64,000 nt of DNA. It comes from an uncultured Planctomycetia bacterium. GTDB taxonomy: Bacteria > Planctomycetota > Phycisphaerae > FEN-1346 > JAACEH01. This document shows, in pieces, positions 27,015 to 45,501 of this stretch. The notes under the pieces are model-generated. The model saw only the letters and a list, made by a program, of their open reading frames with translations, searched no databases and was not told where the DNA came from. The stretch lies in NCBI GenBank assembly GCA_903929765.1, contig CAIYVX010000094.1, forward strand, positions 62,001 to 126,000. The letters run 5' to 3'. Both the position numbers and the translations under genes were made by a program. Each line of letters opens with the position of its first letter. Within the stretch, counting starts at the first letter, position 1.

Positions 27015-27090
27015 CGCGGGATAGCTCAGTTGGCAGAGCACGGGGTTCATAACCCCGACCGGGTTGGTTCGAATCCAACTCCCGCGTCCA
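27015..27090 (+). tRNA. tRNA-Met(CAT) with encoded CCA, inside the late operon
   Basis: A perfect 76-base cloverleaf: acceptor CGCGGGA/TCCCGCG, D-stem GCTC/GAGC, anticodon stem CGGGG/CCCCG with loop TTCATAA (anticodon CAT at 27048-27050), five-base variable loop, T-stem GTTGG/CCAAC with TTCGAAT, and CCA at 27088-27090. C1 pairs with G72 and position 11:24 is C-G, as in elongators, but the anticodon stem has the three G-C pairs characteristic of initiators. The discriminator base is T. It could also be an Ile2 tRNA needing lysidine. Confidence 0.93.
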
Positions 27091-27305: not shown

Positions 27306-28862
27306 ATGGGACGACTGGTTGACAAGATCAAGGCGGTGTGGGCTGGCGCCGGCGAAAAGGGCCGGCAACGGGTCATGACGGCCGTGCAACGACTGTTCGT
27401 GCGCGGCCGGTACGACTCCGCTCAGACCACGCCCGACAACCAGCGCCACTGGCGGAATGTCGACTACCTGTCGGCCAACGCCGCCAACCGGCCGGAGATT
27501 CGCCGCGTCCTGCGGGCGCGGGCCCGCTATGAGGTGGCCAACAATAGTTACGCCCGCGGTATCGTCCTGACCCTGGCCAACGACGTGATCGGCACCGGGC
27601 CGCGGCTCCAGATGCTCCTGGGGGACGGGGAGAACGACGGCGGCACCAACCTGAACGGCCAGATCGAGCGGGAGTTCGCCGCCTGGGCCAGGGCGGTCGA
27701 TCTGGCCGGCAAGCTCCGCACCATGCGGATGGCCAAGGCCCAGGACGGCGAAACGTTCGGCTTGCTGCACACCAACCCGCGAGTCGACCATGCGGTGAAG
27801 CTCGACCTGAAGGTAATCGAAGCCGACCAGGTGGCTACGCCGCTCATGCAGTTGCCGACGCCGACCTTTGTCGATGGCATCGTTTTCGACTCCTACGGCA
27901 ACCCTGAGAGCTACAACATCCTCGACCGCCACCCCGGCGACATGGTGATTCTGGAGCCGCTGGCCTGCCACGCCTTCCTGGCCGCCTCCGTCATCCACTG
28001 GTTTCGGCCCGACCGGCCGGGCCAGAATCGTGGCCTGCCGGACATCATGCCGGCGCTGCCGCTCTTCGCCCAACTCCGCCGCTTCACCCTGGCCGTGCTC
28101 TCCGCGGCCGAGTCGGCGGCCAACATCGCCATCTTCATGAAGACGATGGCCCCGCCCGGCGGCGAGGCGGCCGAGGTCGAGGCCGGCGTGACGATGGAGT
28201 TCGAGCCGAACATGGCCGTCTTCGGCCCTGAAGGTTGGGAGCCGAGTCAGATTCGGGCCGAGCAACCGGCCACGACCTATGAGATGTTCAAGCACGAGAT
28301 TCTCAACGAGATCGCCCGCTGCCTGAATATGCCGTTCAATATCGCTGCGGGCAACAGCTCCGGTTACAACTATTCCTCAGGCCGGCTGGACCACCAGACC
28401 TACTACAAGAGCATCCGCGTCGAACAGTCCCACATTGAGACGTTGATCCTGGACAGAATTTTTGCGGCTTGGCTCGCGGAGGCCGCCCTGGCACTTGACC
28501 TGGGTGATGAGTTGCCTGACGACGTCGTCGCCGTTCCGCACCAGTGGTTTTGGGACGGTCACGAGCATGTCGATCCGCTGAAAGAGGCCTCTGCCCAGGC
28601 CGAACGGCTGGCCAATAACACGACGACCCTGGCTACGGAATATGCCCGCCAGGGCAAGGATTGGGAAACGGAAGTGCGGCAGCGGGCCAAGGAAGTGGCC
28701 CTGATGAAGGAACTGGGGCTGCCGCTGGTGGCGCCGAAGGGCGCGGTGATCGAGCCGGAGCCGACTCCGGGCGACGCGCCGCAGGGCCAAAAGGGAGAAA
28801 AAGAAGATGAAGGTGACTCGCAACCAACCAGCCGCCGGGCCGGACAGCAACGCGCCGCGTGA
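27306..28862 (+). CDS. Phage portal protein, lambda family
   Basis: 518 residues. VDYLSANAANRPEIRRVLRA, then ARARYEVANNSYARGIVLTL is the hallmark opening of lambda-type portals (Phage_portal_2). NVVGTGP-like NDVIGTGPRLQ, WFRPDRPGQNRGLP and the C-terminal FNIAAGNSSGYNYSSGRLD also fit. The dodecameric portal is the DNA gate and the docking site for the terminase. The tail is charged and disordered and overlaps the next gene by 56 bases. Confidence 0.92.
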   Translation: MGRLVDKIKAVWAGAGEKGRQRVMTAVQRLFVRGRYDSAQTTPDNQRHWRNVDYLSANAANRPEIRRVLRARARYEVANNSYARGIVLTLANDVIGTGPRLQMLLGDGENDGGTNLNGQIEREFAAWARAVDLAGKLRTMRMAKAQDGETFGLLHTNPRVDHAVKLDLKVIEADQVATPLMQLPTPTFVDGIVFDSYGNPESYNILDRHPGDMVILEPLACHAFLAASVIHWFRPDRPGQNRGLPDIMPALPLFAQLRRFTLAVLSAAESAANIAIFMKTMAPPGGEAAEVEAGVTMEFEPNMAVFGPEGWEPSQIRAEQPATTYEMFKHEILNEIARCLNMPFNIAAGNSSGYNYSSGRLDHQTYYKSIRVEQSHIETLILDRIFAAWLAEAALALDLGDELPDDVVAVPHQWFWDGHEHVDPLKEASAQAERLANNTTTLATEYARQGKDWETEVRQRAKEVALMKELGLPLVAPKGAVIEPEPTPGDAPQGQKGEKEDEGDSQPTSRRAGQQRAA

Positions 28863-30798
28863 GCTGACGTTCACGTCGGACATTGCCCTCGAGGCCGCCG
28901 CCCCTGTGGGCCAGGACGGGCAGGTGCCGCGGACGCCGCGGAAGTTCAGCATGGAGGCCTACGGTGGCGGCCAGTTGCAACTGGCTGGCTGGCGCTTCCC
29001 GGTCGTGGTGGACCTGGATGGCCTGTCGATCCGCAACGGGGCCAAGGCCTACCTGGAGCACGACCGTTCGGCCCGCGTCGGTCACCTCGACGGCGTGAAT
29101 GCGGAGGGCGGCAAGCTCCGCGTGACGGGCGTGGTTTCCTCGACCACCCCGACGGCCAGAGAGGTGATGGCCGACGCCGACAATGGCTATCCGTGGCAGG
29201 CCAGCATCGGAGCCGGCGTGCAGCAGGTGGAGTTCGTCGGCGAAGGCAAAACAGTGACCGTCAACGGGCGCGAGTTTACCGGGCCGATCAATGTGGCCCG
29301 GCGGTCGAGCCTGTCGGAAGTGAGTTTCGTGGGCAATGGTGCGGACGATCAGACGTCCGCCAGCATCGCGGCCAAGGCCGCCAAGGAGAAAACCGTGGAC
29401 ACTGCGACGAACGAGAAGGTGGAGACGACTGTGGCCGCCGCTGAGCCGGCGCCGGAAAAGACGATAACTGCCGCCGACCAGGTGGCCGACCTCCGCGCCC
29501 AGGCGGCGGCCGAGCAGGAGCGGATCGCCGCCGTGCGTAAGGCCTGCGGCGACAACCATCCCGACATTGCCGCCCAGGCCATCCGCGAGGGGTGGGACAA
29601 GACCCGCACCGAACTGGAGGTCTTGCGCGCCGAGCGGCCCAAGGCGCCCGCGGCGCACATCCCCGACCACTCGCTGACCAGCCGGGTGCTGGAAGCCGCA
29701 TGCATGCTCTCCGGCAAGTTCGAGGGCGTCGAGAAGCTGTTCGACGAGCCGACGCTCGAAGCGGCCGACAAGCGTTTCGGCAGCGATCTCGGCCTGCAGG
29801 AGTTGCTCCTGGAGGCGGCTTGGGCAAATGGCTATACGGGACGAACGTTTCGGGATAGCCGCGAGGTGATGCGGGCGGCTTTCGGCCGCGACATCCAGGC
29901 CGGCTTCTCCACCGTGGACATCGACGGCATCCTCTCTAACGTGGCCAACAAGTTTCTGCTGCTGGGCTTTTTCTCGGTCGAACGCACCTGGCGAAATATC
30001 TGCGCTATTCGCAATGTGCGTGACTTCAAAACCGTGACGAGCTATCGATTGGTGGGGGCCGACCAGTACCAGCCCATCGGTCGCGGCGGCACGATCAAGA
30101 GCGGCACGCTCGGCAACGAGACCTACACCAACAAGGCCGACACGATGGCCTTGCTCCTGTCCATCGACCGCCGGGACATCATCAACGACGACCTGGGCGC
30201 CATCACCACGGTGCCCCGGAAGCTTGGCCGCGGCTCGGGCCTGGCGATTAACGACGTGTTCTGGAACATCTTCCTGAACAATGCCGCGTTCTTCGCCGCG
30301 GGCAACAGCAACTATCTGACCGGCGCCGCGACCGCCCTGAGCATCGACGGTCTGACGGGGGCCGAGACGACCTTCAATAACCAGGTCGATGCCGAAGGCA
30401 AGCCGATCGGGATCGCTCCCGCCATCGTCCTGGTGCCGACGGCCCTGAACGCCATCGCAACGCAGCTCTTCAAGTCTGCGGAAATCCGCGACAACACGAC
30501 GAACAAGGGCTCCTACGGGACGACGAATCCGCACCAGGGCAAGTACCAGGTCCAGTCCAGCCGCTACCTGGCCAACGCCAAGTTCACCGGCAACAGCGCC
30601 GCGGCCTGGTACCTGCTGGCCGACCCGGCCGACCTGCCGGTGATCGAGGTGGCCTTCCTGAACGGTCAGGAAGCGCCGACCATCGAGACGGCCGAGGCTG
30701 ATTTCACAGTTCTCGGTATACAGATGCGTGGTTATCACGATTTCGGCGTGAACCTGCAGGACCCGCGCGGCGGCGTCAAGAGCAAGGGCACGGCGTAA
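28807..30798 (+). CDS. Fused prohead protease, scaffold and major capsid protein
   Basis: 663 residues. Residues 1-190 resemble a prohead protease (LEHDRSARVGHLDGV with a possible catalytic His, and RRSSLSEVSFVGNGAD). Residues about 195-300 are a low-complexity, helical, scaffold-like linker. From about 300 onward it looks like a Mu gpT-type capsid protein (VANKFLLLGFFSVERTWRNI, WYLLADPADLPVIEVAFLNG, and QMRGYHDFGVNLQDPRG at the end). RBS AGGGAG precedes ATG 28807. An in-frame internal start with its own RBS lies at 29395, right at the protease/scaffold junction. Confidence 0.82.
   Translation: MKVTRNQPAAGPDSNAPRELTFTSDIALEAAAPVGQDGQVPRTPRKFSMEAYGGGQLQLAGWRFPVVVDLDGLSIRNGAKAYLEHDRSARVGHLDGVNAEGGKLRVTGVVSSTTPTAREVMADADNGYPWQASIGAGVQQVEFVGEGKTVTVNGREFTGPINVARRSSLSEVSFVGNGADDQTSASIAAKAAKEKTVDTATNEKVETTVAAAEPAPEKTITAADQVADLRAQAAAEQERIAAVRKACGDNHPDIAAQAIREGWDKTRTELEVLRAERPKAPAAHIPDHSLTSRVLEAACMLSGKFEGVEKLFDEPTLEAADKRFGSDLGLQELLLEAAWANGYTGRTFRDSREVMRAAFGRDIQAGFSTVDIDGILSNVANKFLLLGFFSVERTWRNICAIRNVRDFKTVTSYRLVGADQYQPIGRGGTIKSGTLGNETYTNKADTMALLLSIDRRDIINDDLGAITTVPRKLGRGSGLAINDVFWNIFLNNAAFFAAGNSNYLTGAATALSIDGLTGAETTFNNQVDAEGKPIGIAPAIVLVPTALNAIATQLFKSAEIRDNTTNKGSYGTTNPHQGKYQVQSSRYLANAKFTGNSAAAWYLLADPADLPVIEVAFLNGQEAPTIETAEADFTVLGIQMRGYHDFGVNLQDPRGGVKSKGTA
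29383..29397 (+). promoter_or_regulatory. Internal ribosome binding site and in-frame GTG within the capsid fusion gene
   Basis: AAGGAG (29383-29388) stands six bases before GTG 29395, which is in frame with the fusion gene. A product from here would be 467 residues: the scaffold-like linker plus the capsid domain, without the protease. This parallels nested starts in lambda C/Nu3-type genes. Confidence 0.5.
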
Positions 30799-35571: not shown

Positions 35572-36000
35572 ATGGCAATCACCGTAGACATAGCCGACGC
35601 GGTCGTGGCCGAACTGAATGATGCCTCGTTCAGTAAGGAATTCACGGCCGTACGCAGCTATCGGCCGCAGTACGACCTCGCGGAGATGTCCACGCTGCAC
35701 GTGACCGTGGTGCCCAAGGCCGTCGTCATCGCCGCGGTGACTCGGTCTGGCGTGCAGTATGACGTGTCGGTCGATGTGGCGGTCCAGCAGCACCTCGAAA
35801 GCGAGGACGCCGCGGCCATCGACCCGCTTATGGACCTGGTGGAGGAGATCGCGGATTTCTTCAGGTTGAATCCGCTCTCGGCGTGCCCGAACGTCTCGTG
35901 GGTCAAGACGGAGAACCATCCGGTCTATTCACCGCAGCACCTGGAGGAGTTCCGGCAGTTCACGAGCGTGTTGATGCTGACGTTCCTGGTGGTGAGGTGA
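35572..36000 (+). CDS. Tail-completion/minor tail protein candidate
   Basis: 142 residues. Order (after head-joining, before the gp10-like and major tail genes) and the pattern of strands with FSKEFTAVRSYRPQYDLAEM and VDVAVQQHLESEDAAAIDPL resemble tail terminator/gpU-type proteins. Family not certain. Three bases from the next gene. Confidence 0.6.
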   Translation: MAITVDIADAVVAELNDASFSKEFTAVRSYRPQYDLAEMSTLHVTVVPKAVVIAAVTRSGVQYDVSVDVAVQQHLESEDAAAIDPLMDLVEEIADFFRLNPLSACPNVSWVKTENHPVYSPQHLEEFRQFTSVLMLTFLVVR

Positions 36001-36003
36001 CCC

Positions 36004-36651
36004 TTGGCCGTTCTGCCCTCCATCTCGCTCTCGTTCGACGTGAAGAAGTGGTTTTTCGACCGCGACCGGGTGACGAAGTTCATGGACGGCAAGACCAGGC
36101 AGGCCCTGCAGGAAGCCGGGCGGCGGATTCGGCGGATCGCCCAGACGTCCATGCGGTACGTCACCAGCCGCAAGGAGCAGGAACGGAAGATCGTCGCCGG
36201 CCTGCGAAAGAGAGAGGCGACGGACCCGAACGTTTCGCGGCCGGGCGAGCCGCCCAAGGCTATCCGGCCCCACCCCTGGATCAGGGAGAACCTGTTCTAC
36301 GCCTATGAGCCGGCGGCGCAGTCGGTGGTGATCGGGCCGGTGGGTTTTTCACGTGGCTCCGGTGCGCCGGAGAACCTGGAGTTCGGCGGCCGGGTGCGCA
36401 TCCGGAACAAGCAACGGCGCCGGCGGCGGGTTGGCGGTGGCGGCGAGATCGACATCCGCGGCGGGCAGGTGATCTACACCCGGCTCAACACCTCCGCCCA
36501 GGCGGAGCGGGCCAACCGGATCAACGAGGAACTGTACGGTCCGATGTTCAAGGTCGTTTACATGGGGGCGCGGCCGTTCATGGGGCCGGCCCTGCGCCAG
36601 GTGCAACCGGAACTACCGCGGCTCTGGGCCGCGTCGGTGCGGTCGGCATAG
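36004..36651 (+). CDS. HK97 gp10-like minor tail protein
   Basis: 215 residues from TTG 36004. LQEAGRRIRRIAQTSMRYVT at the start, a central APENLEFGGRV and the C-terminal YMGARPFMGPALRQVQPEL (ARPFMxPAL) are the standard HK97-gp10/gpZ-type tail completion pattern. A basic stretch of arginines lies around residue 137. Confidence 0.72.
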   Translation: MAVLPSISLSFDVKKWFFDRDRVTKFMDGKTRQALQEAGRRIRRIAQTSMRYVTSRKEQERKIVAGLRKREATDPNVSRPGEPPKAIRPHPWIRENLFYAYEPAAQSVVIGPVGFSRGSGAPENLEFGGRVRIRNKQRRRRRVGGGGEIDIRGGQVIYTRLNTSAQAERANRINEELYGPMFKVVYMGARPFMGPALRQVQPELPRLWAASVRSA

Positions 36652-36671
36652 TTATAGGAAAGGACTGAGCA

Positions 36672-37136
36672 ATGACTGTCCCTGTCATCCCGGCCAAGAT
36701 CGGGAAAAACGCGAAGTTGTACTTCTGCGTCGCGGGCATCGCGGCCACACCGACGTGGACCGAGGTGACGAACGTGCAGAACCTCAAGTCCAGCGACCAG
36801 ATGGGCGGGGCCGATGTGACCACGCGCGGCAGCGGCCGGATGAAGCTGGAACTGCCGACACTGGAAACGGTCTCGGTCGAGTTCGACATGATCTGGAACA
36901 CGCTTGACCCGGCGCTCCAGGCCTTCAAGGCGGCGTATCAGGCGGGCGGCTACATCGGTGTGGCCATTATGGACGGTGACATCACCGTCAACGGTTCCGA
37001 GGGCCTGGTGGCGGACATGGCCGTCTTTGCTTTCGAGCGTGAGGAACCGCTCGAAGCGGCGATGACGGCCAAAGTCACGCTGAAGCCGACGCTCTCGCCG
37101 ACGCCCCCGTTCTGGAAGGTGGTTGCAAACCCTTAG
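36672..37136 (+). CDS. Major tail tube protein
   Basis: 154 residues. Starts with a strand-rich region (KIGKNAKLYFCVAGIAATPT), then EVTNVQNLKSSDQMGGADVT TRGSG-type text and VSVEFDMIWNTLDPALQAFK, which fit tail-tube proteins of siphoviruses. It is followed by the tail chaperone and tape measure genes. The stop codon is immediately preceded by a slippery A_AAC_CCT heptamer, so a fraction of product is probably extended by about 97 residues (see 37127-37133). Confidence 0.72.
   Translation: MTVPVIPAKIGKNAKLYFCVAGIAATPTWTEVTNVQNLKSSDQMGGADVTTRGSGRMKLELPTLETVSVEFDMIWNTLDPALQAFKAAYQAGGYIGVAIMDGDITVNGSEGLVADMAVFAFEREEPLEAAMTAKVTLKPTLSPTPPFWKVVANP
37127..37133 (+). other. Slippery heptamer A_AAC_CCT at the end of the major tail gene
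   Basis: In the tail-tube frame the codons are GCA AAC CCT TAG. The heptamer AAACCCT fits X_XXY_YYZ, and a -1 slip changes AAC CCT to AAA CCC and continues past the TAG through 37423. The downstream frame has no ribosome binding site of its own. Confidence 0.6.
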
Positions 37137-37150
37137 TCGCGTCCGGCTCC

Positions 37151-37423
37151 GTGACGCCTGACGTGACGGGCACCTTTGCGTATGGCGGCTCCTTCGACTC
37201 CGGCGACGGAACCGGCCCGCATCCGTACTGGCATAACGCGGCGGCGGGGTATTACCTGTGGTCGGACTGGGGGTGCTGGATGATTGTTCAGCAAGCCCCC
37301 ACCATGGGAACCGTCGTGTCTGCGGCCACGTGGGTGGGGCCGCGCGGCGGGGACAACCAGACCGGCATGCTGGGCACCTACAACCCGGGCGCAGGCGCGA
37401 CGGGTACTGTGACCATCACTTAA
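37151..37423 (+). CDS. C-terminal extension domain of the major tail protein (-1 frame)
   Basis: About 90 residues from the GTG at 37151, but the frame is open through the slippery site before it and there is no RBS, so expression as a frameshift extension is more likely. The text HPYWHNAAAGYYLWSDWGCW and the closing GTYNPGAGATGTVTIT resemble a beta-rich domain repeated in planctomycete and phage surface proteins. Ig-like or similar domains fused by -1 frameshift to tail-tube proteins are well known in siphoviruses. Confidence 0.6.
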   Translation: MTPDVTGTFAYGGSFDSGDGTGPHPYWHNAAAGYYLWSDWGCWMIVQQAPTMGTVVSAATWVGPRGGDNQTGMLGTYNPGAGATGTVTIT

Positions 37424-37438
37424 CGCGGGAGAGCGCAC

Positions 37439-37918
37439 ATGAAAACCTTCACCGATAACGCGGGCAATACCTGGTCGCTGTCCATCACGGTCGACGCCGT
37501 GAAGCGGGTCCGCTCGCTGTTGAACGTCAACCTCATGGACGTGATCGAGGGGACGCTCTTGGAAAAACTGTCGGCCGACCCGGTGCTCCTCTGCGACGTG
37601 CTCTTCGCCGTGGTCAAGCCGGAGGCCGACGCCAAGGGCATCACCGACGAGCAGTTCGGCCGGGCCATGGGTGGCGACGCCATCGAGGCGGCGACGGCGG
37701 CGCTGCTGGACGATCTGGTGGATTTTTTCCCGAGCCAGAGGCGGAAGTTGCTGGGCCGCGCTCTGGCGAAGTTTGCGGAGTTCGAGGCGAAGGCGATGAA
37801 GCACGCGAACGCGAAGCTGGACGCCCTGGACGACGCGGCGATGAGCCGGCTGCTGAATACTGGTGGCGAGCCGTCTGGCAACTCGCCGGCGTCGTCGGCG
37901 TCAACCCCGGCTCCTTAA
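37439..37918 (+). CDS. Tail assembly chaperone (gpG-like)
   Basis: 159 residues. Begins with FTDNAGNTWSLSITVDAVKR and RVRSLLNVNLMDVIEGTLLE, which resembles tail-chaperone proteins encoded between the tail tube and tape measure. RBS-like GGGAGAG precedes ATG 37439. The following frame (37921-38145) continues in -1 without its own RBS, so a gpG/gpGT frameshift pair is probable. Confidence 0.68.
   Translation: MKTFTDNAGNTWSLSITVDAVKRVRSLLNVNLMDVIEGTLLEKLSADPVLLCDVLFAVVKPEADAKGITDEQFGRAMGGDAIEAATAALLDDLVDFFPSQRRKLLGRALAKFAEFEAKAMKHANAKLDALDDAAMSRLLNTGGEPSGNSPASSASTPAP
37723..37732 (+). other. Candidate slippery sequence in the tail chaperone gene
   Basis: In the chaperone frame GAT TTT TTC CCG contains T_TTT_TTC (37723-37729) and T_TTC_CCG (37726-37732), both X_XXY_YYZ forms. 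The -1 frame is open from 37459 through 38145. The site is about 190 bases before the stop codon, farther upstream than usual for this gene pair. Confidence 0.3.
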
Positions 37919-37920
37919 CG

Positions 37921-38145
37921 TTGCGGGAACTGGTGCTGATGGCCGACGCCCGTCAGCGCGAGGCCTGGGGTCGGCTCAGCGCCTTGTTGGCCACCATCGC
38001 CAACGTCAACCGTGATCCGAAGAAGCGGGCGGTGTCGCCCGACGACTTCAATCCCTATGTCGACAAGCGGCCGTCGTCGGGCACGCCGATTACGGCGGAA
38101 AACGTGCACCTGTTGAAAGCGTGGGTGAACCGTGGCGGGAAGTAG
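37921..38145 (+). CDS. Tail assembly chaperone, second part (gpT-like, -1 frame)
   Basis: 74 residues if read from TTG 37921, but there is no RBS. The frame upstream already encodes the family-like text WQLAGVVGVNPGSLTLREL, which runs without break into ELVLMADARQREAWGRLSAL. It is therefore more likely the T part of a G-T fusion made by frameshifting from 37439-37918. ANVNRDPKKRAVSPDDFNPY is a common motif of these proteins. It overlaps the tape measure start by 14 bases. Confidence 0.62.
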   Translation: MRELVLMADARQREAWGRLSALLATIANVNRDPKKRAVSPDDFNPYVDKRPSSGTPITAENVHLLKAWVNRGGK

Positions 38146-40084
38146 TGGAGCCATTCGAGCGGGCCGGGCCTTCGTCGAGTTGTTCACCGACGACTCGAAG
38201 CTCGCGGCCGGTCTGAACGCGGCCAAGCGAAAGCTCGAAGCCTTCGGCCGGAGCATAAAAGACCTGGGGCTGAAGATCTCGGCCGTGGGCGCCGCCGTCA
38301 CCGGCCCGCTCCTGGCGACGGCAAAAGAGTTCGCCGACATGGGCCACGAGCTCCAGATGATGTCGGAGAAGACGGGCATCAGCGTCGAGACGCTCTCGCA
38401 GCTTGGCTTCGCCGCCAAAGAGTGCGGCGTCGAGGCCGAAACCTTGACCGGGGCGTTCGCCAGAATGGACCGCACCCTGGTCCAGGCCGAGAAGGGCAAC
38501 AAGAAGGCCGTCGAGGCGCTCTCGGACCTGGGGCTGACTCTGGCCGACCTGAAAGGCAAAAGCCCGGAAGCCCAGTTCGCCCTGATCGCTCAGCGGATCA
38601 GCGAGTTTGAAGATCCCGCCGAGCGGGCGGCAATGGCCATGCAGGTTTTCGGCCGCGGCGGCGCGGCGCTCTTGCCCTTACTGAATCAGGGCGCGGCGGG
38701 GATCACCGGCCTCATGGACAAGGCCCGCGAGCTGGGGTTGACGATTTCCGGGGAGGACGCCCGCGCCGCCAGTCAGTTTCACGACGCCATGTTGGAATTG
38801 TGGGCGGTGTTGCAGAAGTGCTGGTTCACCATCGGCTCGGCGTTGGCGCCGGTCCTCAAGGGCTTGGCTCAATGGGTCACGGCGGTTGTCATCGGCGTGA
38901 CGAAGTGGATCGGCCAGCACAAGCAGTTAGTGGTCGCCATTCTCGGCTTCGGCGCCGCCATTACGGCGCTGGGCCTCGGGCTGGTGGCATTCGGCGTCGT
39001 CGTCACCTACGTCGGCGCGGCTATCGGGGCGCTCGGGACCATCGCCAGTGTGGTCGGCGGTATTCTCGGTGCCCTTGGCTCGGTGCTCGCGGCCATCTGT
39101 TCGCCCGTGGGCCTGGTCGTGGCTGCTATCGTAGCCCTCGGGGTGATCATTCTGAAGGTGACGGGGGCCGGGGCCAAGGCCCTGAAGTGGCTCGGCGACA
39201 TGTTCAAGGAACTGTGGAAAGACGCCTGCCTGGCCTTCGACGGTATCTCCGACGCCCTGGCCGCCGGCGACATCACCCTGGCCGCGAGAATCCTCTGGCT
39301 CACCCTGAAGATGGAATGGACGAAGGGCTGCGCCACCCTCTCGGAAATCTGGACCAAGACCTGCGCTGGGTGGAAGATCATTGCGTCCGAGGCGTGGTAC
39401 GGCGTGCTGAAGGCGGGCGAGTCCACCTGGCACGCCATCGCCGCCGGCTGGATCGAGACGACCAACTTCCTCTCGAATTGCTGGACGCGGTTCGTCCAGG
39501 GCGTCACCAAAGGTTGGAATTGGGTCAAGGGCCTGTTCGACGAGAGTTTCGATTCCCAGGCCGCGAATAAGCTGGTGGACGCGGCGGCGAATTCCGACGT
39601 GGCGAAGCGGGAGAAGGAACGCGACGAAGAATTGGCGAAAGAGGACGCCATTCATAAAAAGGTGCTGAACCAAATCGACGCCGAGCGCGAGGCGAAGCTG
39701 AAGGCCATTGTCGATGCGCGCGACGCCTCCCTGAAAGAGACGCAAGACGAAGTGGACGCCGCGCGGAAGGCGTGGAACGACGCGCGGGCCAAAGCCAAGC
39801 AGGAACGGAAGGACAAAGAGGACGCGGTGAAGGCGACGGCGGACGCCGCCGCCGGTGCGGTGCGGAATCGAAAGCTGCCCGACAAGGATGACGTGTCGAA
39901 AGCCATTAACGACGCCTCGGCCAGGGGCACGTTTAACGCCTCGTCCGGGGCCATGCTCGGTATGCGTATGAACGGTGGCGAGACGATGGAGCGGGTGGCC
40001 AAGTCCAGCGAGAAGTCGGAAAAGCATCTGGAAAAGATTCAGCAGGAGCTTTCGGAGTTTGACGGCGCGGAATTTGGAGTGTAA
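38132..40084 (+). CDS. Tail length tape measure protein
   Basis: 650 residues from GTG 38132. The N-terminal region (FVELFTDDSKLAAGLNAAKR and SEKTGISVETLSQLGFAAKE) is typical of tape measure proteins. Several hydrophobic helices lie at about residues 240-350 (VVAILGFGAAITALGLGLVA, VVGGILGALGSVLAAICSPV). A long coiled, charged region at about 490-590 and a C-terminal tail follow. Its length sets the tail length; 650 residues predicts a short siphovirus tail of roughly 100 nm by the usual 1.5 angstrom per residue rule. Confidence 0.85.
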   Translation: MAGSSGAIRAGRAFVELFTDDSKLAAGLNAAKRKLEAFGRSIKDLGLKISAVGAAVTGPLLATAKEFADMGHELQMMSEKTGISVETLSQLGFAAKECGVEAETLTGAFARMDRTLVQAEKGNKKAVEALSDLGLTLADLKGKSPEAQFALIAQRISEFEDPAERAAMAMQVFGRGGAALLPLLNQGAAGITGLMDKARELGLTISGEDARAASQFHDAMLELWAVLQKCWFTIGSALAPVLKGLAQWVTAVVIGVTKWIGQHKQLVVAILGFGAAITALGLGLVAFGVVVTYVGAAIGALGTIASVVGGILGALGSVLAAICSPVGLVVAAIVALGVIILKVTGAGAKALKWLGDMFKELWKDACLAFDGISDALAAGDITLAARILWLTLKMEWTKGCATLSEIWTKTCAGWKIIASEAWYGVLKAGESTWHAIAAGWIETTNFLSNCWTRFVQGVTKGWNWVKGLFDESFDSQAANKLVDAAANSDVAKREKERDEELAKEDAIHKKVLNQIDAEREAKLKAIVDARDASLKETQDEVDAARKAWNDARAKAKQERKDKEDAVKATADAAAGAVRNRKLPDKDDVSKAINDASARGTFNASSGAMLGMRMNGGETMERVAKSSEKSEKHLEKIQQELSEFDGAEFGV

Positions 40085-43349: not shown

Positions 43350-43389
43350 CCACCATTTCTGAGCGGGCGGACCTGTGGGAGGCAAAGTG

Positions 43390-43608
43390 ATGAATGGCAG
43401 CCACAGCGGGGTTTTAACCATCGACGAACTGTCGGTCTATCTGAAGGTTCCGAAATCCACCCTCTACAAACTTGCCCAGGAACGGAAGGTGCCTGGCCAG
43501 AAGGTGGGACGACTCTGGCGGTTCCGCAAGGAGCGAATCGACGATTGGCTTGACAACTCCGATGGCGACGTTCTGAAGTCCGTGAGCGATTTTGCAAGCC
43601 CGTCCTGA
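43390..43608 (+). CDS. Excisionase-type (HTH_17) DNA-binding protein
   Basis: 72 residues. LTIDELSVYLKVPKSTLYKL, QERKVPGQKVGRLWRFRKER and IDDWL form the complete winged-helix excisionase-family (HTH_17) domain. GGAGG precedes ATG 43390. It stands 39 bases before three methyltransferase genes. It may control that operon, or act as an excisionase for a mobile element. Confidence 0.82.
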   Translation: MNGSHSGVLTIDELSVYLKVPKSTLYKLAQERKVPGQKVGRLWRFRKERIDDWLDNSDGDVLKSVSDFASPS

Positions 43609-43647: not shown

Positions 43648-45501
43648 ATGGTGTCTAAGTCAGCAGATAGTGCCGTCGGTCGATCCAAGCTGTCCAGCCG
43701 GGTAGTGGAAGGTCTCTATCATCTTCCGATGCAGGCCACGCGGAGCGGTCCGCTGTTCAATGCGTTCCCGTACCCGACGAAGATTTCGCCGGAGACGATT
43801 GCGCTCTTCATTGCCACCCATACGTCTCCTGGTGAGACCGTCTTTGACGGATTCTCGGGGAGCGGAACAACCGGACTGGCGACGATTCTTTGCGCCAATC
43901 CTCCCGCCGAACTGAAGGCGGAGGCCATCAGATTGGATCTGCCCGTGAAGTGGGGAGCGCGAAAAGCGGTGCTGTGCGAAATTGGCACGCTGGGTTCGTT
44001 TGTCGCCCGCGTCCTCTGTTCGTCTCCTGACCCAGAGGAGTTCCGGCAGGCCGCCGAGCAGCTGTTGGCCGAAGCTTCTGCTAATTGCGGTTGGCTGTAT
44101 GAGACGACCGATCCTTCGGGCCAGACCGGGACCATTCGGTATGCCATCTGGTCGGATACGCTGAAGTGCCCATCATGCGGAAAGGACGCCCTGCTGTGGG
44201 ACGCCTGTGTGTCCCGTGACCCCGCCGAAATCGCCTCCACGTTTCATTGCCCGCACTGCCAGCATGAAGCAGCTGTCGACTCGGTCAAGCGTGTGAGCGA
44301 GACGGTAGCTGATGAGCTTCTTGACCAGCGCCGCAAACTCCGTCGGCGCCGCTTGGCTTGGGTATATGGCACGACCGGTGGGCGCAACTGGTCACGCGCT
44401 GCGAACGCCAGTGATGAGGCTTTGCTGAAGCGTATTGCTGAGGAATCGATTCCCGGTTGTGTCCCGGAGGTCGAGATTCCCTGGGGTGACCTGTACCGAG
44501 CAGGTTACCACGAAGGCATGACGCACGTTCACCATTTTTATACAAAGCGGAATCTGATTACTTTTGCTTCGTTGTGGGAGCAAGTTGAAAAACATCCCGA
44601 GCGGCTGAGGGATGCTCTGCGGTTCTGGCTGCTCAGTTACAATGCCGCGCATGCGACCATCATGACGCGAGTCGTAGCGAAGAAAGGGCAAAAGGACCTG
44701 GTGGTCACCAGTGCTCAGCCAGGTGTGCTGTATGTTAGTGGCTTGCCAGTGGAGAAAAATCTTTTCGCTGGGCTCCGGCGAAAACTGGATACCATCGCTG
44801 ATGCCTTTGCGATCACGCACGGCTATGCCGGCACGGTCGACGTACGCAACTCGTCCTGTCTATCGGTGGACTTGCCTGCTGGTTCGGTAGATTATGTGTT
44901 CACCGACCCGCCATTTGGTGGAAACATCCCTTATGCCGAGGTAAACTTCCTGAACGAGGCGTGGCTGGGGCGTCCAACAAATGTCGCTGAAGAAGTCATT
45001 GTCAGCCCCCATCAAGGGAAGACCGTAGAGACGTATGGGAGTCTTCTGGCGCAGGCGTTGCAGGAAGCCAATCGTCTGTTGCGGAAGGAGGGTAACGCTA
45101 CTGTCGTCTTCCATTCATCCTCGGCCCAAGTCTGGAATTCACTTCAAAGCGCCTGCGAAAGTGCTGGGTTTGGCATCGCCTTGACGAGCGTCCTCGACAA
45201 GACGCAGGGCAGTTTCAAGCAGGTGACTGCAACTGGGGCGGTGAAAGGCGACCCGCTTCTGCTTCTTACCAAGACGCAGACTTGCCGGGGCCAAGAAAAA
45301 AGGGGCGTATGGACTGTCGCCAAACAGCTTCTCAAGGAAGCCATCAAGATCGGAAACCCGGCGGAGACGACGCCGCAACGGCTGTACTCGCGCCTGGTAG
45401 GTTACTACCTCTCTCGGCGGCAGAACATTCCCCTTGATGCGGCCGAGTTCTATGGACAATTTGCGGAAAGGCTTGCCCTAGATGGCATTACAGTCGCATA
45501 A
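43648..45501 (+). CDS. DNA methyltransferase with inserted zinc ribbon (617 aa)
   Basis: 617 residues. SAM motif FSGSGTT at 69-75 precedes catalytic TDPPFGGNIPYAE (D420-F423), so motif order is I then IV. The long insertion between them carries a zinc ribbon (C174, C177, C201, C204). The DPPF/Y-G-x-NI-x-Y form is that of large DNA methylases of the DUF1156 neighbourhood. The opening segment (LPMQATRSGPLFNAFPYPTK) is typical of methylases that act with partner subunits. RBS AAGGAG precedes ATG 43648. It overlaps the next gene by 20 bases. Confidence 0.85.
   Translation: MVSKSADSAVGRSKLSSRVVEGLYHLPMQATRSGPLFNAFPYPTKISPETIALFIATHTSPGETVFDGFSGSGTTGLATILCANPPAELKAEAIRLDLPVKWGARKAVLCEIGTLGSFVARVLCSSPDPEEFRQAAEQLLAEASANCGWLYETTDPSGQTGTIRYAIWSDTLKCPSCGKDALLWDACVSRDPAEIASTFHCPHCQHEAAVDSVKRVSETVADELLDQRRKLRRRRLAWVYGTTGGRNWSRAANASDEALLKRIAEESIPGCVPEVEIPWGDLYRAGYHEGMTHVHHFYTKRNLITFASLWEQVEKHPERLRDALRFWLLSYNAAHATIMTRVVAKKGQKDLVVTSAQPGVLYVSGLPVEKNLFAGLRRKLDTIADAFAITHGYAGTVDVRNSSCLSVDLPAGSVDYVFTDPPFGGNIPYAEVNFLNEAWLGRPTNVAEEVIVSPHQGKTVETYGSLLAQALQEANRLLRKEGNATVVFHSSSAQVWNSLQSACESAGFGIALTSVLDKTQGSFKQVTATGAVKGDPLLLLTKTQTCRGQEKRGVWTVAKQLLKEAIKIGNPAETTPQRLYSRLVGYYLSRRQNIPLDAAEFYGQFAERLALDGITVA

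Follow-up and report, generated by a model that had tools for sequence, protein, structure and literature searches.

The prophage in the window (the whole 64,000-nucleotide stretch of DNA that we analyzed) very probably makes a short and a long tail-tube protein, and the long one would add an outward-facing domain to the tail. It seems quite likely that the mechanism is programmed -1 frameshifting, which would give a minor 250-amino-acid tail-tube protein beside the 154-amino-acid one, with the two forms co-assembled and the extra domain on the outside of the tail. The underlying observation is real, and the frameshift interpretation is well supported. It would add the prophages of planctomycete-type bacteria, a group whose phages have received little study, to those with frameshift-decorated tail tubes. 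It also offers a testable contrast with the known cases: the proline codon before the stop codon is alike, but the direction of the slip is opposite, which is set by one base of phase. The added domain may represent a new small family, with a plausible adhesive role by analogy to other tail decorations.

The tail-tube gene and its neighbors

All of the tail genes and slip sites that we describe are on the forward (+) strand. An earlier note on this DNA took the gene at 36672-37136 to encode the tail-tube (major tail) protein, and this identification agrees with our searches. Its 154-amino-acid product matches phrog_1407, "major tail protein" (E = 1.9e-5), and a profile of the protein (A2) matches the PDB chain 8qhs_A (E = 3.8e-6, 47 chains). 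The match to Pfam's Phage_tail_2 is below the cut-off (E = 0.01). A candidate tail completion or neck protein is encoded upstream, at 36004-36651 (phrog_5, weak, E = 0.0044). Downstream are a G-like tail assembly chaperone of 159 amino acids at 37439-37918, which is conserved and adjoins the tail gene in relatives, and then the tape measure protein at 38132-40084 (phrog_8462, E = 1.3e-44). The similarity to phrog_1407, the sub-threshold similarity to Phage_tail_2, the match to 8qhs_A, and the gene order together support the assignment of 36672-37136 as a tail-tube gene. Relatives of the protein were found in 84 of the 397 genomes from the class, and the phage collection had no match to it.

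Farther from the tail genes, 28807-30798 encodes a major capsid protein that is fused to a head maturation protease (phrog_4523, "major head and protease protein", E = 5.4e-73), and a tRNA-Met gene (CAT) lies just upstream of the structural genes, at 27015-27090. The structural region ends with a small helix-turn-helix gene at 43375-43608 (HTH_17, E = 1.2e-13) followed by a DNA methylase at 43648-45501 (N6_N4_Mtase, E = 1.5e-9).

A slippery heptamer, a stop codon, and an open -1 frame

The 3' end of the tail-tube gene reads GTT GCA AAC CCT TAG. As the earlier note had it, the slippery heptamer A_AAC_CCT is right before the stop codon: the heptamer is at 37127-37133 (AAC CCT in the 0 frame and AAA CCC in the -1 frame), and TAG, which might act as a pause signal, is at 37134-37136. 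The heptamer has the in-frame form X_XXY_YYZ of canonical -1 frameshift sites, and it is A_AAC_CCT in all five of the loci that carry the downstream domain. Beyond it, the -1 frame is open across 37133-37423 and encodes a single copy of a domain rich in W, Y, and G. The translation from the slip begins KPLVASGSVTPDVTGTFAYGG and ends with GATGTVTIT, just before the TAA at 37421-37423. This extension has 96 codons past the slip, and about 97 had been estimated. The +1 frame of the window is closed after 8 codons.

To estimate how often this layout would arise by chance, we took every stop-to-stop stretch of 100 codons or more from either strand of the window, 280 in all. Just 2 of them have an in-frame X_XXY_YYZ in the last four codons, and of these two, only the tail gene leads into a long open -1 frame (95 codons; the other has 12). 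A proline codon comes directly before the 0-frame stop in all five loci (CCT, then TAG or TGA). CCT is rare, with 9 of the 179 proline codons in 13 ORFs of the window that we counted, yet it is kept in every one of the five.

Relatives that share or lack the layout

This layout is found at five loci. One is in the window, and the others are in another prophage from the window's genome, in a metagenome-assembled genome (MAG) of the Phycisphaerae (two loci), and on one IMG/VR contig. They represent three separate sequence sources (the window's own genome twice, MAG JAAYDY01 twice, and IMG/VR 3300042261_002345), and they all belong to one small phage lineage. Each has the heptamer, an adjacent stop codon (TAG, TAG, TGA, TAG, and TAG), and a homologous domain in the -1 frame, and the string C AAACCCTT is invariant. 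Across the split, their tail proteins are 51-55% identical.

The second prophage in the same genome is on contig C93 (loci L004/L007), in the counterpart of 35635-38921, and has 92 percent identity in an alignment of 3,286 positions. It retains the heptamer, the stop codon, and the extension. Judging from this alignment, these are two related prophages in one assembly. The MAG (isolate AS06rmzACSIP_597) is apparently the same genome as G030, from the same family. One of its loci (L044) has a single domain and the stop codon TGA, while the other (L045) has two domains in tandem and TAG. The IMG/VR locus (L067) also has the two-domain form, so the domain is duplicated in 2 of the 5 loci.

The earlier note had proposed conservation of the heptamer in relatives as a check. 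In the other tail loci that we examined, AAACCC was not found before the stop codon, either in 28 loci that were read by eye (L010-L037) or in 94 further relatives of the tail gene, one of which (L068) ends at a contig end. In other words, the heptamer before the stop is present in 5 of 5 domain-bearing loci and absent from 122 of the 122 others, where these 122 are loci and not distinct phages, as some contigs are in both sets. The tail relatives from viral contigs were the best 80 of 570.

The domain itself is rare. With the window's sequence as the query, it was found in 2 of the 397 class genomes (E ≤ 0.001); a profile of the domain found it in 3 of 397 (E ≤ 0.01), one of which is spurious. 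It is in 2 of the 8 genomes from the order and in 1 of 392 from the phylum, which is the window's own genome (G030 is evidently outside that sample). A search of viral contigs gave only the contig of L067. The pattern AAACCCTTRRTCGNNTC occurs four times in the 8 order genomes, always at the four known tail loci, and the reversed pattern, as a control, had no match in those genomes.

Selection on the -1 frame

Purifying selection acts strongly on the extension's reading frame. Between the extensions of the window and C93, there are 13 substitutions in 294 nucleotides, and 12 of the 13 are at the third codon position of the -1 frame. The dN/dS ratio for this pair is 0.025 in the -1 frame and 5.4 and 4.8 in the other two frames; for the tail gene itself, it is 0.02. 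Between L045 (from the MAG) and L067 (the viral contig), there are 23 substitutions in 561 nucleotides, and dN/dS is 0.105 in the -1 frame. Just 1 of the 13 substitutions in the first pair and 6 of the 23 in the second alter the protein. When we placed the same base changes at random, none of 20,000 trials gave as few amino acid changes, for either pair. Given the low dN/dS and the random placements, we conclude that the -1 frame is translated.

A fused product or a separate protein

If the -1 frame is translated, then ribosomes might either shift into it or begin anew. The first start-type codon in the frame is the GTG at 37151-37153, which is not conserved in the relatives. By eye, no Shine-Dalgarno-like sequence precedes it, which fits the claim in the earlier note that the extension lacks its own ribosome binding site. 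The start-type codons after the slip are GTG at codons 9 and 13 in the window and C93, TTG at codon 3 in L044, and TTG at codon 14 in L045 and L067; we did not find one that is common to all five loci. Nor did the sequences show a conserved ribosome binding site and start for 37151-37423, which the earlier note had named as one of two findings that would refute frameshifting. Also, the second copy of the domain in L045 and L067 starts with EKLTGTGETTP, which aligns with KPLVGSGVTSP straight after the slip, which puts the start of the domain unit at the slip itself, earlier than any start codon. The mismatched starts, the extent of the domain unit, and the invariant C AAACCCTT favor a fused product over reinitiation, as far as sequence comparison can tell.

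These data bear on each of the other explanations. In termination-reinitiation, ribosomes would terminate at the TAG and begin again close by in the -1 frame, and the product would be a free decoration protein of about 90 amino acids. The GTG at 37151 is just 14 nucleotides from the TAG in the window, and in L044 the TTG overlaps the TGA stop, both of which would favor a restart. But the candidate starts do not match across the loci, the conserved N-terminal part of the domain would be lost if translation began at codon 14 in L045 and L067, and neither the invariant heptamer nor the rare CCT would be explained. We consider reinitiation to be rather unlikely. Transcriptional slippage would result in a fused protein as well; however, the runs at the site are merely AAA and CCC, and such slippage usually needs much longer homopolymers, which makes it very improbable here. 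Finally, a difference of one base would join the two frames, as expected if a tail gene that was once fused to the domain had been broken by an indel, or if there were a sequencing error. This idea is already contradicted by the relatives: the frame relation, the heptamer, and the adjacent stop recur in five loci from three separate sources, and few of the substitutions alter the protein. We regard an error or a pseudogene as very improbable.

The -1 frameshift that the earlier note proposed is the best reading, given that the heptamer abuts the stop in all five domain-bearing loci and in none of the 122 others, and given the purifying selection and the lack of a usable conserved start. The arrangement of heptamer, stop codon, and open frame, its conservation, the selection for coding in the -1 frame, and the absence of a conserved start are all established at the level of the DNA.

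How the ribosome might slip

In the proposed frameshift, most ribosomes would halt at the TAG at 37134 and release the 154-amino-acid tube subunit. A smaller share of them, held up at the last two codons, AAC CCU, with the stop codon to follow, would step back one base, to AAA CCC, and translate another 96 codons. The resulting 250-amino-acid subunit would have the same tube domain plus the C-terminal beta-rich domain, and it would contain a junction peptide spanning ...VVANPLVASGSVTPDVTGTFAYGG... The short and long subunits would then co-assemble, so that the extra domain would stand on the outer face of the tail, probably as a module that binds weakly to surfaces or glycans. We infer the shift by the ribosome, its efficiency, the slip of tRNA-Pro with the stop as a pause, the incorporation into virions, and the adhesive role.

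The genome encodes tRNA-Pro with the anticodons GGG, UGG, and CGG and tRNA-Asn with GUU. By the pairing rules, tRNA-Pro GGG should read CCU by G-U wobble and would pair better with the CCC one base back, while tRNA-Asn would lose its third pair in going from AAC to AAA. In the simplest model, the terminal proline codon would be the place of the slip, with the stop codon waiting in the A site, much as in the SPP1, 936, and Listeria phages discussed below, but in the backward direction, as the extra C is on the upstream side. A regular tandem slip in the elongation phase would fit just as well.

In a test of all 64 heptamers in E. coli, C_CCY was among the shift-prone tetramers, and cognate re-pairing in the A site mattered (PMC4066793). 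CCN heptamers shifted less than UUN or AAN heptamers, and a mix of purine and pyrimidine at X and Z lowered shifting; the change from AAC to AAA is non-cognate and disfavored (PMC4066793). From the portions of that study that were available, A_AAC_CCT belongs to a class of heptamers that is weak in E. coli.

We did not find a conserved RNA stimulator downstream of the slip. The downstream folds were near those of shuffled sequences (z from 0.36 to -2.02, for 8 folds at 4 loci), their covariation term was unfavorable, and no fold was significant or covarying. Nucleotide identity runs across the slip for 76 nucleotides (P = 0.048) and 109 nucleotides (P = 0.026), which is weakly longer than expected from the substitutions. 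The upstream TGGAAG is present in relatives that lack the heptamer as well.

More speculatively, the terminal-proline shifty stop could be bidirectional: at C_CCU.stop, the re-pairing of CCU to CCC would give a -1 shift, just as the forward re-pairing at CCC.U gives +1 in the SPP1, 936, and Listeria phages. The stimulus would come from the stop codon and not from an RNA structure, and the shift would deliver a family of tail-surface domains that has not been described before and that can duplicate in tandem. We view this broader proposal as possible but doubtful.

The extension domain

The domain has the motif G[TV][FWY]...YLW...RW...W.GP...GdY.Pg..GatGT.TI. For the 4 members that we scanned, there was no Pfam match with E up to 1, and no PHROG matched better than E = 0.39. 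In particular, no Ig-like or FN3 family from Pfam or PHROGs matched, in agreement with the earlier note's view that the domain differs from Ig-like extensions. Matches in the phage collection were weak (E = 0.2 and E = 0.9), and the second copy of the domain in L045 had no match there. Overall, the domain is absent from Pfam, PHROGs, and phage records, and on these searches it looks new.

The AlphaFold model of the extension has five strands and no helix. This is consistent with the "beta-rich" domain of the earlier note, at low confidence (mean pLDDT 60.9). A fold search with this model found no PDB match at E ≤ 0.001, and the two-domain model was worse (pLDDT 41.9). The "repeat-like ending" that had been described is no repeat within the domain. 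The domain has GATGTVTIT as its conserved end, and two relatives have the domain twice in tandem. The aromatic- and glycine-rich sequence, the site on the tail-tube protein, and the analogy to the TpeX and FN3 extensions (PMC6669499, PMC8718954; available in part) suggest that the domain might be a surface-binding decoration, and this is the least secure step.

Three other candidate matches were set aside as products of chance or artifacts. According to its ORF list, the match in viral contig L002 lies in an alternative reading frame of a different gene. The match in genome G359 (locus L040) overlaps a long unrelated ORF, which we take to be a DUF362-like protein. SAKe designed proteins are matched by the tail profile and by the extension alike.

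A second likely frameshift site, in the chaperone gene

A second likely -1 slip site, T_TTT_TTC, is inside the chaperone gene, at 37723-37729, and would lead into a GT-like product that ends at 38145. Among the 86 relatives with an FFP-like motif (another 20 lacked the motif), 73 have TTTTTTCCC at this site. The -1 frame is open from the slip site to the T domain in 85 of the 86, and the other frame is open in 20. The conserved T domain follows 46 codons downstream of the site, and the GT-like product would thus include a long and poorly conserved linker. This gene (37439-38145) fits the G/GT pattern of Lambda and is a separate event from the slip in the tail-tube gene. It is a sign, at the level of sequence, that this lineage uses -1 shifting, and it gives two conserved -1 sites in two adjoining tail genes.

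In many relatives (L050, L059, L105, L119, and others), other inserted genes or open frames of more than 100 bases to about 3.5 kb lie between the tail and chaperone genes, which makes the place behind the tail-tube gene a possible insertion hotspot.

Comparison to known frameshifted tail proteins

These comparisons draw on the available parts of the cited papers. In phage SPP1 (gp17.1/gp17.1*), a +1 shift at CCC.UAA adds an 87-amino-acid FN3 extension to the tail-tube protein, with the tube proteins at 3:1 (PMC6316719). As in SPP1, the gene considered here is for the tail tube and the slip is at the last codon, which encodes proline and adjoins the stop, but the shift is -1, at A_AAC_CCU.UAG, and the domain is unrelated. 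In the lactococcal 936 phages, a +1 shift at CCC.UAG adds a BppA-like carbohydrate-binding domain (MTP-TpeX, about 22 kDa), and the fused protein was shown by Western blot and immunogold (PMC4759559, PMC6669499). Again, the tail gene, the shifty stop at a proline codon, and a non-Ig extension are common to both, while the direction of the shift differs and the 936 domain is BppA-like. In the tsh genes of the Listeria phages PSA, A118, and A500, which are major tail genes, the site is AAA CCC UGA, with a +1 shift on CCC (PMC5009743). The letters AAACCC are the same here, but in another frame phase. The +1 direction of these terminal-proline shifty stops does not apply to our case: the +1 frame of the window is soon shut, and the conserved frame is -1.

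In Lactobacillus phage A2 and phage T3, a structural protein gains an Ig-like domain at its C-terminus by a -1 frameshift (PMC5009743). Our case resembles these in its direction and in the C-terminal extension of a structural protein, but their domain is Ig-like and their slip sites are different. The extension in A2 is reportedly also on its tail protein.

The earlier note presented Ig-like extensions by -1 frameshifting as the established background. Frameshift-extended tails are indeed known, but SPP1 and the Listeria and 936 phages shift +1 at CCC.stop, which makes a -1 shift at CCU.stop a variant. Likewise, its point that this case uses a different domain holds in that the domain is not Ig-like, but non-Ig extensions of tail-tube proteins were already known, as in TpeX (PMC4759559, PMC6669499). 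Our search of the literature, mostly without subscription journals, found no report of a frameshift at AAACCCU or of a case in the tail of a planctomycete prophage. Tail extension by frameshifting is itself known; what looks new is the -1 direction at A_AAC_CCU.UAG, together with an undescribed domain.
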